From: Desulfobacteraceae bacterium
GTDB lineage: Bacteria > Desulfobacterota > Desulfobacteria > Desulfobacterales > Desulfosalsimonadaceae
Direction of reading: 5' to 3'
Assembly (NCBI GenBank): GCA_011390465.1
Contig: JAABSH010000003.1
Location: 62,001 to 126,000 of the forward strand
DNA length: 64,000 nucleotides
The position numbers and the translations under genes are program-made. Below are positions 23,765 to 28,474 of the stretch, piece after piece (position 1 is the stretch's first letter; each line of letters starts with the position of its first letter). The notes under the pieces were generated by a model. The model was not told the origin of the DNA, did not search any database, and saw only the letters and a program-made list of their open reading frames with translations.

Positions 23765-24898
23765 TTATTCCATTACATGCAGCCCGCCGATATCCATGAT
23801 CAAAAACCGTCCCGCATCCAGGTTGGTTTCGGCAATGGTGCGGCGCAGGTCCAGGGCGGGATAGCCTGCGGGCTCATCTCCTAAAGAAAACGTCCCCCAC
23901 TGGGTGGGAATAAAAGTAGCCGCTCCGAGATCGTCGAACGCCCGGACGGCTTCAATGACGTTCATGTGCGCGTAATGCATAAACCATCGGGGGTGATACG
24001 CTGTAACGGGAATCAGGGCATAGTCAATGCCGGGAAACCGGCGGCCGATTTCCCGGTATCCTTTAAAATAGCCGCCGTCCCCGTCAAAATAAACTGAAAC
24101 CGCAGGGGTGGTGATGAGATAACTGGCCCACAGGGTGGTGTTGAGCCCATGACCGATCCGCCGGGACCAGTGCTGCATAGGGGTGCACACCAGGCGGGTG
24201 CCGTCTTCCATGTCCACGGATTCCCACCAGTCCATTTCCGTTACATGGGGTTTGCCAAGATCGGCCACAAACTTTTTCAGGCCAAGGGGCACGAAAAACC
24301 GGGTGGCGTCCGGCAGGGCCCGGATGCTGTTTTCGTCCAGATGATCATAGTGGTTGTGGCTGATGATGCAGGTGATCTGATCCGTGATGGCGAGGATCTC
24401 ATCAATGGTGATGCCGGGCCGAGTTTTGCGTTTGGGCAAGAGGGCACGGTCTGAAAACATGGGATCTGTCAGCCAGTATCGGCCGTTGATGCGCATAAAA
24501 AAAGTGCCATGCCCCGCCCATAAGATGAAATCTTTATCTCTTGCGGCCCGGATACGGGCAATCGCGTCCGGAACCACCGGCGGCAGAAAGGCCTTTTCCG
24601 TTTTTGTGTAATTCTGCGCAGGAGACAGCCGCCATCGCAGCAGCGTTCCCAGGCTCTTTTTTTCCATGGGCATCCAGGGATTAAAAAACACCCCGTCTTT
24701 TTCATGGGGCGCGTACAGGTCTTTTGAGTCGGTCGCCATCACCCGTTCATGCCAGGCGGATTCGCTAAAATCCGGTGCGAGCCCGGACACAAACCCGGAA
24801 CAGCCGGGGCAGAAAGATAGAACTCCGTATCCCGCAGCTGCAATAAAAAAGATAAAAATTGCAGTTCTCAGGCGTTTCAAAATTTTCGGATTTTGCAT
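23765..24898 (-). CDS. membrane-anchored MBL-fold hydrolase (NAPE-PLD/UlaG-like)
   Basis: Metallo-beta-lactamase-fold hydrolase of about 377 aa. An N-terminal hydrophobic segment (about 10-30, IFIFFIAAAGYGVL) suggests export or anchoring. Zinc ligands lie in SHNHYDHLDE (about 177-186), followed by the family's MDWWES, CTPMQHWS and VYFDGDGGYFKG motifs. This pattern is that of the NAPE-phospholipase D/RomA branch, which acts on N-acyl lipids or unknown substrates. The start is uncertain: ATG at 24898 or GTG at 24931, neither with a good ribosome site. It lies 72 bp downstream of the serpin fusion gene and is probably read with it. Confidence 0.82.
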   Translation of the reverse strand: MQNPKILKRLRTAIFIFFIAAAGYGVLSFCPGCSGFVSGLAPDFSESAWHERVMATDSKDLYAPHEKDGVFFNPWMPMEKKSLGTLLRWRLSPAQNYTKTEKAFLPPVVPDAIARIRAARDKDFILWAGHGTFFMRINGRYWLTDPMFSDRALLPKRKTRPGITIDEILAITDQITCIISHNHYDHLDENSIRALPDATRFFVPLGLKKFVADLGKPHVTEMDWWESVDMEDGTRLVCTPMQHWSRRIGHGLNTTLWASYLITTPAVSVYFDGDGGYFKGYREIGRRFPGIDYALIPVTAYHPRWFMHYAHMNVIEAVRAFDDLGAATFIPTQWGTFSLGDEPAGYPALDLRRTIAETNLDAGRFLIMDIGGLHVME

Positions 24899-24970
24899 TT
24901 TATGGTTAATCAGGCTTGAAAAAAATCTCACAATTCAAATTGACGTTGGATTTTGTATTCATTCTCAGGC

Positions 24971-27763
24971 TCAGGCGGTCGGATCAAGGACCCGTCCCAT
25001 AAACAGAATGGTTTGGGTAAAATGGTCATAAATGATAAACATAAAGGGCCTGTCCGCGGACAGAGTCGTTATTTGAGGCATTCCGGTTTCCGACATGACA
25101 ACCGCGGTGGCGGCCGCCGCTTCCGTGCCGTTTTCATCCACTGCCACAAATGCTTTGTGAAATACCTCATCAATCCAGGGTCTGGACTGAACCGGGCTGA
25201 CCATGTTGCTGAAATCGGCCAATGTCCAGTCAAAGGCATCTGTCATGCCAAGCCCCGTTAAAATATCTTTGCACCGGGTTTCACACGCAAACTCAAATTT
25301 CGGAAATGTTAAATTGACTGTCCCCATGGACAAAGCGTCAATAACCGATTCAATACCGGCGATATCAAGGCCGGCCTCCACGGATTGGAATTCACCGGCA
25401 TGGGGAATGATGACCAGCATGGCAAGCTCCTGCGGATAGGCATATTCCGGGAATTTGGGGCTGGCATAGGGAAGTTCCACAACGTCAAATCCGTTCCCCT
25501 TAAAATACCGGGTATCTGTTTGCCGATGCATGAAATGGGCGGTTACCACGGTTTGGTCAAGCAAGGTAAATGATCCCGGCGCCGTTCTTTCCGCGTTGAA
25601 TTTTTCATACCAGGAGCCCTTGAAATAGATGGCATTGGTCAGCACCACTGCTGTTGACGGGGAGATGGAACCGGGCGGCAAGAGATCTTTTATTTTTTCA
25701 TTGGTCTGGTCTTCCACCCACAGGTTAATGGTTTGTCTGCTGCGGGCCGGGTTTCCCGCGAAATCCAGGGTTCGCACACCGGTATCATAATTTTTTGCGA
25801 TGAGATCCAGATAATTCGGAAGAAACGGATACCCTATGCGGCTCCACACGGCATTGACCAGGCTCAGGGCAAAGGGATCGCCGGAGGGTGGCGGTTGGTC
25901 ATCCCGGCTGTTGATGTCGATATTCAAGGCATTCAAGGTGGGATGGAATCGGTCTTGCGGCAGGTTCAAATGCAGTGCGTCCGCCATTTGAGCGCTGGTT
26001 TGCCCGTTGGCCCCGGCCCAGGTCATGGCAAGGGCGTTTTCAATGCTGTAAGGGGAAAAGAAAAGATTTTTTCCGGATGAGGACGCCGCATTTCTTAAAG
26101 CATGATAAAAATCCAGGGTGAATTCGGAAAATCCCGCAACAAGGGTTTTTTGATCCGCATCAGAAGCCACCGGGGCCGAATCATACAATACGGATGATTT
26201 TACCAGACCTTCGGAAGGCATTGCCACACCGGACAGATAGTTCATGATAAAAAGTGCTTCCGCGAGTCCGATGCGATGATCGCAGTTCACGTCCGCTGAC
26301 GGATTAAGCGCAACACTGGTTTCCGTTTCTGTGCAGATTTTTAACGCAAGTATCAGATCCCCCAAATCAATGGTGCCGTCGCCGTTGATATCACCGGCAT
26401 CAGCGGCGGTATTTTCTTGACCATATTCATAAGCCCCGATATCCACACTTTCGCCCTTGGGCCGGGAGTTCCCCTCAAAATCCCGGGTGGGTGCATTGGT
26501 GTTGGTGCCATTGTCAATGGCGGGACTGGTTTCACTGAGATGAAGATCAAAATTTCCGGCATCCACAAACAGATCCGCTGGCGAAGCGGCTGTCAGCGAA
26601 TGCGCATCCTGATTGCCGCTGTAGGCTGTCCAATCGCCGCCGGCGATGTCGTCCGCGGAAAATTCATCCTCATATCCCACGGCAATCACGCGGCCCGGAT
26701 TGTCATTGTGAAACAGATTGTAATCCCCCGTATAATTGGCAACGCTTCTCTGTTCAAAGGCCAGACCGATATTGTCGCCCCCGGCAAGAATACAGTTCAC
26801 CATATGAAGCGCATCCCCGCTGTTTTCCACCCAGATGTTATATGTATCAGCATCCATGAAGGTGCAGTTGCGAAGGGTGGTCGTACCGGGAGTGCCGTCC
26901 CAGTCCAGTTCCAGATTGGAAATGCCGTTATTGTATGACAGACAGTTGGTCAGCGTAATCTGATCCGCCCATATTTTGTATCCGCCGTTAGCGCAGTTAA
27001 AAGCGGAACACCGATCAAGAAGAGTGCGATTTCCGCTGATATCAAAACCATCAAACACATTGTACGCCGTGCACCGGTTGAAGGTAAAGTCGTGCTGGCC
27101 GCCGTGCCCGATGGCAAAACCATCCACATTTTGTTCCGGATCCCTGCCGGTATGGGCGTTACAATCATTGAACACGCCGTTATAACAATCCGCGCCGCCG
27201 GATGGCGACGCATCTACCCCATACAAATCAAAATGGTGAATGAGAACCCGATTTAAAACAAAATCATGGCTCCCGTCGGCCAGGCCGATCCCATAGACCA
27301 CATGGCTCACTTCACAATCGGAAATCTCCAGAAATCCCGCGTGCATGGCCCATATGCCGTTATCCGGCCAGTTTCGGATTTCAAGATGCCGCAAATGGAT
27401 ATGATCATGGCTGATTAAAAAACCGTTGCCGCCGGACGATACCCCGGTGCCGTCAAGAATAACCTGTTCTTCCGGATATGCGGAAAAAATAATGGGCGCA
27501 TCTGCATTGCCGCTGGCCGTCGTATAAACCCGATCATTGTAAATTCCGCCCCGGATATAGACAATGTCTCCTGCCCGCAGCGTGTCGGCGGCATGCTGAA
27601 TGGTTTGCCAGGGCTGGGTGATGGTGCCGGCAAATGCATTATTCCCGTCAGTTGCCACATAATAGGTATCGGCGGCTGCGTTTGTACTTCCGAAAAATCC
27701 GATAAAAATGCCGATCCACAGAAAAATACAGCGAAATAAACACGACCACGATAATGTTTTCAT
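24971..27763 (-). CDS. secreted beta-helix / dockerin-like / serpin fusion protein
   Basis: A 930-aa exported protein with three modules. After a signal peptide (about 1-31), residues 32-445 form a right-handed parallel beta-helix (DTYYVATDGNNAFAGT, DRVYTTASGN; many Asn-rich turns; ends AYEYGQENT), as in pectate-lyase-like/NosD proteins. Residues about 451-515 hold two EF-hand-type calcium loops (GDINGDGTIDLGDL and ADVNCDHRIGLAEAL), a dockerin-like pair. Residues about 540-930 are a complete serpin (KNLFFSPYSIENALAMTWAGA, VLTNAIYFKGSW, FHKAFVAVDENGTEAAAAT, DRPFMFIIYD). The small-residue hinge before the reactive loop (about 877-890) is that of inhibitory serpins. The P1 residue is Thr or Met depending on alignment. 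Target protease unknown. Confidence 0.9.
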   Translation of the reverse strand: MKTLSWSCLFRCIFLWIGIFIGFFGSTNAAADTYYVATDGNNAFAGTITQPWQTIQHAADTLRAGDIVYIRGGIYNDRVYTTASGNADAPIIFSAYPEEQVILDGTGVSSGGNGFLISHDHIHLRHLEIRNWPDNGIWAMHAGFLEISDCEVSHVVYGIGLADGSHDFVLNRVLIHHFDLYGVDASPSGGADCYNGVFNDCNAHTGRDPEQNVDGFAIGHGGQHDFTFNRCTAYNVFDGFDISGNRTLLDRCSAFNCANGGYKIWADQITLTNCLSYNNGISNLELDWDGTPGTTTLRNCTFMDADTYNIWVENSGDALHMVNCILAGGDNIGLAFEQRSVANYTGDYNLFHNDNPGRVIAVGYEDEFSADDIAGGDWTAYSGNQDAHSLTAASPADLFVDAGNFDLHLSETSPAIDNGTNTNAPTRDFEGNSRPKGESVDIGAYEYGQENTAADAGDINGDGTIDLGDLILALKICTETETSVALNPSADVNCDHRIGLAEALFIMNYLSGVAMPSEGLVKSSVLYDSAPVASDADQKTLVAGFSEFTLDFYHALRNAASSSGKNLFFSPYSIENALAMTWAGANGQTSAQMADALHLNLPQDRFHPTLNALNIDINSRDDQPPPSGDPFALSLVNAVWSRIGYPFLPNYLDLIAKNYDTGVRTLDFAGNPARSRQTINLWVEDQTNEKIKDLLPPGSISPSTAVVLTNAIYFKGSWYEKFNAERTAPGSFTLLDQTVVTAHFMHRQTDTRYFKGNGFDVVELPYASPKFPEYAYPQELAMLVIIPHAGEFQSVEAGLDIAGIESVIDALSMGTVNLTFPKFEFACETRCKDILTGLGMTDAFDWTLADFSNMVSPVQSRPWIDEVFHKAFVAVDENGTEAAAATAVVMSETGMPQITTLSADRPFMFIIYDHFTQTILFMGRVLDPTA

Positions 27764-27811: not shown

Positions 27812-28474
27812 TTATCGGATAATCCCGCTTCCGCTTGTTCGCTCCCCGGCCCAGGTGCCGGCCATATCCGGAACCATAAGGTGATCAAAATCAACCGCCC
27901 AGGTGCCGGCCATGCTTTCACAATCAGTTGTGCCGGTGATTAAAAGGGTAAATTGTACGCTGAAGCCGCCATATGCCGGGGGCAGGGTGACAGTATCCGA
28001 ATAGACCGATGTTATCTGATTTCCTTCTATGGTAACGGGCTGGTTGGTGAAATCACCGGTGATGGTGTCCCCGTATTCAACGGAATAATCCCCATCCGCC
28101 ACTACCTCCCCGGAAACCGCCTGGCGCAGCACAAAATTCAAGGTGCCAAGCAACTGGGATGACGCATCATAAATATCTGCGGTCCATTCTTCTTCAGGGC
28201 CGGTGATACCGGAAAGCCATTGCATATCAAAAATGGCGTCCATAAGATTGATCCGGTGATCCCCATTCACATCCGCTTCCAGAAGGGCCGATCCACCGGC
28301 TTCAGCGCCGGCGCTAATCTGAAGGCAGATGAGAATATCCGCCAGGTCAACCTGCCCGTCTGAATTAACATCGCCGATGATGGTGGTCGCACTTTCGTTC
28401 GGTGCTGCAAATGCAAATCCTGCCAAAAATACAATACAAACAGCTATAATTAAATTGATACTGCGAATGTTCAT
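27812..28474 (-). CDS. exported dockerin-like protein
   Basis: 220-aa secreted protein of unknown function. It has a clear signal peptide (about 1-23, ending AGFAFA). Residues about 32-93 are a dockerin-like pair of calcium loops (GDVNSDGQVDLADIL, ADVNGDHRINLMDAI) very similar in design to the module inside the neighbouring serpin fusion. The C-terminal ~125 residues (WTADIYDASSQLLG, TGTWAVDFDHLM) look like a beta-rich domain that I do not recognise. It is 48 bp upstream of the serpin fusion gene on the same strand, so the two are probably one operon. No cohesin-bearing scaffold is visible. Confidence 0.82.
   Translation of the reverse strand: MNIRSINLIIAVCIVFLAGFAFAAPNESATTIIGDVNSDGQVDLADILICLQISAGAEAGGSALLEADVNGDHRINLMDAIFDMQWLSGITGPEEEWTADIYDASSQLLGTLNFVLRQAVSGEVVADGDYSVEYGDTITGDFTNQPVTIEGNQITSVYSDTVTLPPAYGGFSVQFTLLITGTTDCESMAGTWAVDFDHLMVPDMAGTWAGERTSGSGIIR

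Follow-up and report, generated by a model that had tools for sequence, protein, structure and literature searches.

Serpins joined to dockerins have been described from the cellulosomes of fibre degraders, in which the Doc-Serpin of Ruminococcus flavefaciens, PinA of Clostridium thermocellum and an anaerobic fungal serpin each carry both modules in one secreted protein. SIGN-Doc-SERPIN proteins are reported from R. flavefaciens (PMC2930009), the Doc-Serpin row bears a plus in one column of an interaction table (PMC2930009; PMC5301203), and dockerin-serpins have been proposed to shield the cellulosome from proteolysis (PMC5301203), according to the portions of these papers drawn on here. Marine and sulfur-metabolising prokaryotes possess hub-type serpins with the inhibitory hinge motif ExGTEAAAA, x being E, K or R (Spence et al., 2021, PMC8233489); the sections of that paper used here propose intracellular housekeeping for them, consider it improbable that those of marine and sulfur-metabolising bacteria target hosts, and call the functions of prokaryotic serpins relatively enigmatic. 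Here, a minus-strand gene at positions 24971-27763 of a 64,000-nucleotide window (the whole stretch of DNA analysed, from contig JAABSH010000003.1 of the Desulfobacteraceae assembly GCA_011390465.1) is described. Its product, hereafter the window protein, joins a right-handed parallel beta-helix, a choice-of-anchor Q segment, a type I dockerin and a serpin.

Like the cellulosomal serpins, the window protein combines dockerin and serpin in one polypeptide, which is probably secreted, and the R. flavefaciens Doc-Serpin has the same order of signal peptide, dockerin and serpin in the portion of its description used here. Whereas those proteins come from the cellulosomes of fibre degraders, the window protein is encoded in a dsrA-bearing genome (3.93 Mb, 119 contigs, completeness 100%, contamination 1.19%) and has a beta-helix and a choice-of-anchor segment in front. 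The dsrA match (618.7 bits, above cut-off) indicates a dissimilatory sulfite reductase in the host, in agreement with the sulfate reducer named in the first-pass annotation, an earlier note made from the sequence alone. The nearest relatives of the window serpin lack dockerins, and the clostridial and fungal dockerin-serpins are set apart from it by description rather than by sequence. Since cellulosomal dockerin-serpins are already known, the window protein is a variant within that kind. Its likeness to the hub-type serpins lies in the hinge motif, in which x is here N; whereas intracellular housekeeping is proposed for these in the part of PMC8233489 used, the window protein has a probable signal peptide and a docking module. 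An adhesin role has also been proposed for cohesin/dockerin proteins of methane-syntrophic sulfate reducers (PMC10553843), and such proteins are found in the archaeal partners of these bacteria (PMC9012536), in the parts of both papers drawn on. The adhesins are non-cellulosomal cohesin/dockerin proteins of sulfate reducers, as is proposed here, but no serpin is mentioned with them; the word "serpin" has 0 occurrences in the main texts of the two papers. Among the literature matches listed, none concerned a beta-helix/dockerin serpin or a sulfate-reducer serpin.

Architecture of the window protein

The gene and its modules are arranged as follows:
24971..27763 (-), whole gene, 930 amino acids (aa), a single open frame (Pfam and NCBIfam domains)
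27671..27763 (-), probable Sec/SPI signal peptide, residues 1-31, a hydrophobic stretch ending ...STNAAA-D, read by eye
26549..27670 (-), right-handed parallel beta-helix, residues 32-405 (Pfam Beta_helix, AlphaFold2 (AF2) model, VIA-align, family alignment)
26423..26548 (-), choice-of-anchor Q segment, residues 406-447 (NF041518, E 1.9e-14)
26234..26398 (-), type I dockerin, residues 456-510, with calcium loops from D458 and D491 (Pfam PF00404)
24974..26212 (-), serpin cassette, residues 518-930, the unit common to other genomes (blastp; locus L069 62%, locus L066 60%)
24980..26128 (-), serpin domain, residues 546-928 (Pfam PF00079, E 1.9e-101, and own-genome search)
25085..25135 (-), reactive-loop hinge to P1, residues 877-893 (P17-P1), by the 17-residue spacing rule

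The open reading frame (ORF) has zero internal stops, and a domain search places three Pfam domains above cut-off within it, which bears out the fusion of beta-helix, dockerin and serpin that the first-pass annotation had read; both the serpin and the beta-helix are recognised by profiles. Chance or low-complexity domain matches were ruled out by the Pfam E-values.

The best Pfam Beta_helix stretch covers residues 216-339 (E 1.7e-13, 51 bits, cut-off 25.9), and the NCBIfam choice_anch_Q match that follows it scores 53.7 bits (curated cut-off 25). An AF2 model of the beta-helix, built from seven aligned rows, has a mean predicted local distance difference test score (pLDDT) of 77.6, which becomes weak from about residue 350 on, so that the anchor segment is poorly modelled. 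According to VIA-align, the top fold match is Pel9A (1ru4; Z 33.3, root-mean-square deviation 3.3 over 319 residues), followed by the polysaccharide lyase family 9 (PL9) rhamnogalacturonan lyase 5olq and a glycoside hydrolase (both Z 32.4, a tie with the top), and then by AlgE epimerases and a tailspike at Z 31-32; epimerases, tailspikes and an adhesin together span Z 28-32. The identity of the beta-helix fold is clear and the fold is Pel9A-like, with the scores of other beta-helix enzymes differing by about 1 Z or less. Among solved structures, the best match by sequence profile is the xylosidase 3vst (2.9e-12, residues 32-110 only), followed by 5olq (6.4e-7). The PL9 lyases have NVDGF and DGFD stretches in common with the module, but are only 18% identical to it. 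D214, D238 and K263 are invariant in seven of seven aligned rows; D241 is present in the window protein and is replaced by Val in L048. D214, D238 and D241 are candidate calcium-site residues, and K263 is a candidate catalytic Lys, its GGYK[LI]W stretch being similar to the motif around the catalytic Lys of Pel9A.

The beta-helix module is exchanged among different C-terminal partners. A scan of named genomes with exact peptide patterns returned six relatives (Ignavibacteria 2, KSB1 2, Stahlbacteria 1, Bacteroidetes 1), all matching inside residues 1-452 and 51-59% identical to residues 1-447; none of the six loci matches the serpin part, and a scan by exact patterns is therefore no proof against the fusion occurring elsewhere. 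A QNxPNPFN-type tail closes four of the six, L049 has a diverged tail, and L048 stops right after the anchor segment. Both Ignavibacteria proteins (L045 and L047), which were scanned with NCBIfam, have choice_anch_Q followed by a type IX secretion system (T9SS) type A sorting domain, whereas the window protein has dockerin and serpin there. Because its dockerin follows the choice-of-anchor segment, in the place of the T9SS tail of both scanned relatives, the surface or matrix display suggested by the first-pass annotation is plausible. At E <=1e-30, the module was matched in five of the 291 order genomes and in three of the 390 in the phylum sample (this genome in both). Serpins were not seen in the stretches read of seven other module loci (L092-L096, L184, L185), three of these stretches being truncated where the locus ends. 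Genome G214 has two beta-helix copies with a different C-terminal region, without a dockerin or serpin match.

A nuclease-type payload on a similar chassis was observed in two genomes, G006 and G144, in proteins that are probably secreted. The first (L141:758-2998, G006:C719) has a related beta-helix (hhalign E 3.3e-30), choice_anch_Q, a dockerin of 18.6 bits, under the Pfam cut-off, and then GmrSD_C (1.7e-12); the second (L094, G144:C118) has the same order, its GmrSD_C/HNH-type part, truncated by the end of the locus, being recognised by eye. By sequence, these proteins share the helix with the window module only in part. They resemble the window protein in beta-helix and dockerin but end in a GmrSD_C/HNH-type part instead of a serpin, and thus a beta-helix/dockerin chassis can bear a different payload after the dockerin.

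Pfam Dockerin_1 matches residues 456-510 (2e-6, 28.4 bits, cut-off 22.9), and the module is accordingly a type I dockerin; the first-pass annotation had recognised the calcium-loop pair, for which its label "dockerin-like" was too weak. The two F-hand calcium loops, DINGDGTIDLGD and DVNCDHRIGLAE, start at residues 458 and 491, and in each, positions 1, 3 and 5 are Asp or Asn and position 12 is acidic. The genome holds 12 PF00404 matches, 11 of them above cut-off, and further weaker dockerins. Nine of the 12 form the very end of their proteins, the exceptions being the window protein, its upstream neighbour (N-terminal) and a 5392-aa protein (near the N-terminus). L078, from the same genome, consists of beta-helix, choice_anch_Q, dockerin and end, and L072 differs from it by a TSP_3 repeat ahead of the dockerin; to judge by sequence, the two are the chassis of the window protein without the serpin. 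Order-wide, dockerins occur in 52 of 194 genomes. A small dockerin profile scored 22 ORFs in 29 new loci of the order (seven loci had none): 19 have the dockerin <=40 residues from the end, one runs off the locus end, and two have >280 residues after it.

Dockerins and a cohesin are present together in this genome (G000). One PF00963 cohesin match lies above cut-off, in a 184-aa ORF (G000:C52), and a nearby ORF, which stays open up to the end of the contig, bears a weak resemblance to cohesins (17.8 bits, cut-off 24.1), with 34% identity over 205 columns to the domain preceding the serpin in L052. This locus (L079:9282-11956) comprises the small cohesin gene, an ORF with one dockerin-like loop by eye, on which the dockerin profile gave no match, and the weakly cohesin-like ORF; ORFs further upstream resemble a type I secretion system by eye. 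Candidate exported proteases also exist, namely a C25 (gingipain-type) peptidase with a terminal dockerin (L073:861-5132, G000:C38; 1.4e-41) and one subtilase ORF (G000:C39). Glycoside hydrolases were not among the Pfam matches of seven dockerin proteins, no search aimed at them having been made.

Serpin domain, cassette and relatives

The serpin domain is full-length, covering positions 4-370 of the 370 of PF00079 (340.4 bits, cut-off 27). The best solved relatives are the I4 serpin 8gxv (6.7e-65) and 9j91 (3.5e-59), after which mostly animal serpins follow (best 60 of 204). The hinge, P17-P5, reads ENGTEAAAATAVV from residue 877. At residues 877-885 (P17-P9), ENGTEAAAA agrees with all fixed positions of ExGTEAAAA, and the EAAAATAVV from which the first-pass annotation had deduced an inhibitory-type hinge is present. 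The hinge suggests suicide inhibition. By the 17-residue spacing, P1 is predicted to be T893 and P1' G894; on the other hand, a HMMER alignment to 8gxv sets E892 opposite its Arg, which would make E892 the P1 residue instead. Thr is the commonest P1 by spacing (24 of 72 scored among 74 rows), followed by Lys (17), and the loop hints at a target protease that cuts after small residues.

The serpin forms part of a cassette that recurs on other leaders. The closest cassettes are L069 (62% over 414 columns; leader lipoprotein-like by eye) and L066 (60% over 412; two DUF4214 stretches), with homology that begins at residues 518 and 520, respectively, by blastp; residues 1-518 gave no blastp match with L069, L066 or L028. 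Linker LVKSSVLYDSAP opens the cassette and is common to both close relatives. The first-pass annotation had described bacterial serpins as uncommon and usually single-domain. In this sample they are not rare, with 42 of the 291 order genomes (34 of 138 genera) having one, and they are often not single-domain, >=140 aa separating the first Met of the frame from the serpin in 20 of 69 tree rows. In 68 of the 69, <=60 residues follow the serpin. Among same-family genomes of other genera, one of 14 has a serpin, and at E 1e-30 the cassette is present in 34 of 395 phylum-sample genomes, this one included. The tree rows derive from 74 extracted serpin rows, with duplicates merged and partial frames skipped (L023 twice, L070, L119, one of L121, L136); L053, L068, L122, L125 and L126 were dropped before the 69-row tree, in which L081 is a long branch. 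The survey left out fragments in G006:C955, G057, G184 and G249, and phylum-sample cassette matches without a locus, except those fetched otherwise.

In the tree, the window serpin groups with L066 and L069 (100/100). A dockerin was detected with our own profile in six of the 69 rows, namely the window protein, L035, L036, L052, L059 and L103, and the latter five lie inside a separate 12-row group (98/92). A single clade for all six was rejected (p-AU 4.8e-62). The dockerin label needs five changes on the tree, three of them forced by starred branches, and gains are indistinguishable from losses.

Several other serpin loci have features of their own. L131:369-2513 (G495:C94) encodes a chagasin-type I42 inhibitor (2.9e-10, above cut-off) together with a serpin, two unrelated inhibitor types in tandem. 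In L057:3161-5131 and L052:95-2491, a cohesin-like domain and dockerin-like repeats stand ahead of the serpin, the cohesin-like domain being identified by a weak Pfam match in L057 and by similarity to the C52 ORF in L052; with both parts, one protein might dock and be docked upon. The serpin gene of L023 (G281; 1315-2619) is broken by one in-frame TGA. In the serpin of L067:2523-4181 (G271, same family), about 86 extra residues interrupt the early part of the domain, the matched stretches being 73-130 and 217-552.

Proposed function and alternatives

The arrangement of modules suggests that the window protein could be exported and act as a suicide inhibitor on a non-cellulosomal cohesin/dockerin matrix, to which it would be docked and which it would protect; we regard the chances that this is right or wrong as evenly balanced. 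The beta-helix would act on or bind polysaccharide, and the dockerin behind the choice-of-anchor segment would bind a cohesin belonging to an extracellular assembly other than a cellulosome, docking through the dockerin being plausible. A protease would cut the exposed serpin loop near T893, the hinge would then go into sheet A, and the protease would be locked and inactivated. The serpin may thereby guard dockerin-assembled surface or matrix proteins, as well as itself, against environmental proteases or those exported by the cell. The attached modules suggest a place and a purpose for the serpin, in an extracellular cohesin/dockerin assembly of a bacterium not known here as cellulolytic, and link two questions, the roles of bacterial serpins and those of non-cellulosomal dockerins. 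A wider proposal is possible but tentative: in sulfate-reducer-type bacteria of this order, the beta-helix/choice-of-anchor/dockerin chassis might be a docking platform for C-terminal payloads (serpin, or HNH-type nuclease in G006 and G144), with the dockerin serving as a latch inside the protein instead of a tag at its end, and the serpin as a movable matrix-guard cassette, seen on a lipoprotein-like leader, with DUF4214, behind cohesin-like and dockerin modules, and on this chassis.

Several results weigh against matrix protection by a docked inhibitor. Serpins are absent from the four other genomes sampled from the genus (0/4). At P16 the protein has Asn, where the published consensus allows E, K or R. 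The structure prediction proposed in the first-pass annotation succeeded for the beta-helix but not for the dockerin and serpin, which, predicted without an alignment, gave a pLDDT of 34.3 and were left unused. The Pfam dockerin cut-off is reached by the window protein only: among the five remaining dockerin-serpins, L056 (the L035 gene) misses it by 0.1 bit, L133 (the L103 gene) scores 19.5 bits, and L057 (the L036 gene), L052 and L059 have no match at E 0.01. The dockerin label shows hardly any clustering on the tree (5 changes; mean of the shuffles 5.8, with 74 of 500 shuffles as low). For the beta-helix, the Pfam Pel9A-like score is 18.6 bits, under the cut-off of 25.2 and over residues 29-76 only, and F237 stands opposite the first Asp of the SDDG stretch of 5olq. 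Finally, the genome has one above-cut-off cohesin for at least 12 dockerins. This last imbalance would suit a dockerin that is a calcium-stabilised spacer or a relic, in a protein secreted without binding cohesin and with a serpin that acts in solution, as would the occurrence of the same serpin without a dockerin in the close relatives G124 and G129 and the internal position of a module that is otherwise mostly terminal in this genome and in the order. However, both calcium loops keep their liganding pattern, six phylum-sample serpins with dockerins, for which one clade is rejected, carry the module by our own profile, and the R. flavefaciens proteins provide a described precedent, in the portions of those papers used; a spacer or relic is unlikely, with a real chance of being correct.

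The remaining explanations concern the individual modules. Were the beta-helix a working enzyme (a lyase, epimerase or hydrolase acting on matrix or on algal or plant polymers), the serpin might shield that enzyme only, and the two lyases among the top modelled folds, together with the invariant D214, D238 and K263, point in this direction. The tie with a glycoside hydrolase, the closeness of epimerases, tailspikes and an adhesin, and the short xylosidase match argue otherwise; lyase activity is doubtful because of the Phe at the first SDDG Asp and the sub-cut-off Pel9A-like score. In 118 genomes of the phylum, PF22842 gave three weak partial matches, including the window protein, and zero above cut-off. 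An enzyme with a private inhibitor is distinctly unlikely. The first-pass annotation had the serpin face outward, against host or grazer proteases. Surface display is plausible and a Thr P1 could suit elastase-like proteases, yet no link to a host was found, nothing was found in support of grazers as a target, serpins are spread across genera of the order, and PMC8233489, in its sections used here, speaks against hub-type serpins of such bacteria acting on hosts; an outward target of this kind is very unlikely. A non-inhibitory serpin (of a storage, folding or signalling type) would be in keeping with the ambiguous P1 and with P16, but GTEAAAA at P15-P9 fits the inhibitory motif, making such a serpin highly improbable. 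The locus is known from one assembly, and two proteins of the same genome stop right after the dockerin, as might be expected had an assembly or sequencing error joined a beta-helix-dockerin gene to a serpin gene. Against such a joint stand the frame, which is open throughout, the GC fraction of 0.50-0.52 along the gene, the linker kept in both close relatives with no signal-like stretch ahead of it in the window protein, and the recurrence, by our own profile, of dockerin followed by serpin in five other loci. Because the module borders recur in other genomes, an artefact, which the first-pass annotation had named as what would overturn its reading, is extremely improbable.

Neighbouring genes

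Two genes flank the serpin-fusion gene closely:
23765..24931 (-), downstream neighbour, metallo-beta-lactamase-fold protein (Pfam Lactamase_B_2), 39 bp away on the same strand
27812..28474 (-), upstream neighbour, 48 bp from the serpin-fusion gene, probable secreted protein of 220 aa whose dockerin spans residues 34-80

No evidence was found for a functional link of the metallo-beta-lactamase-fold protein to the serpin-fusion gene, and no peptidase was found among five neighbour genes scanned with Pfam. Promoter-like sites are about as many as chance would give (10, expectation 11.9), and terminator-like sites are more numerous than that (22, expectation 13.4, standard deviation 4.6); neither defines an operon. 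The C-terminal half of the upstream neighbour matches zero Pfam families at E 0.1, and among the 42 non-self matches listed for its non-dockerin part, 38 stop by residue 105 and four extend to 120-155.

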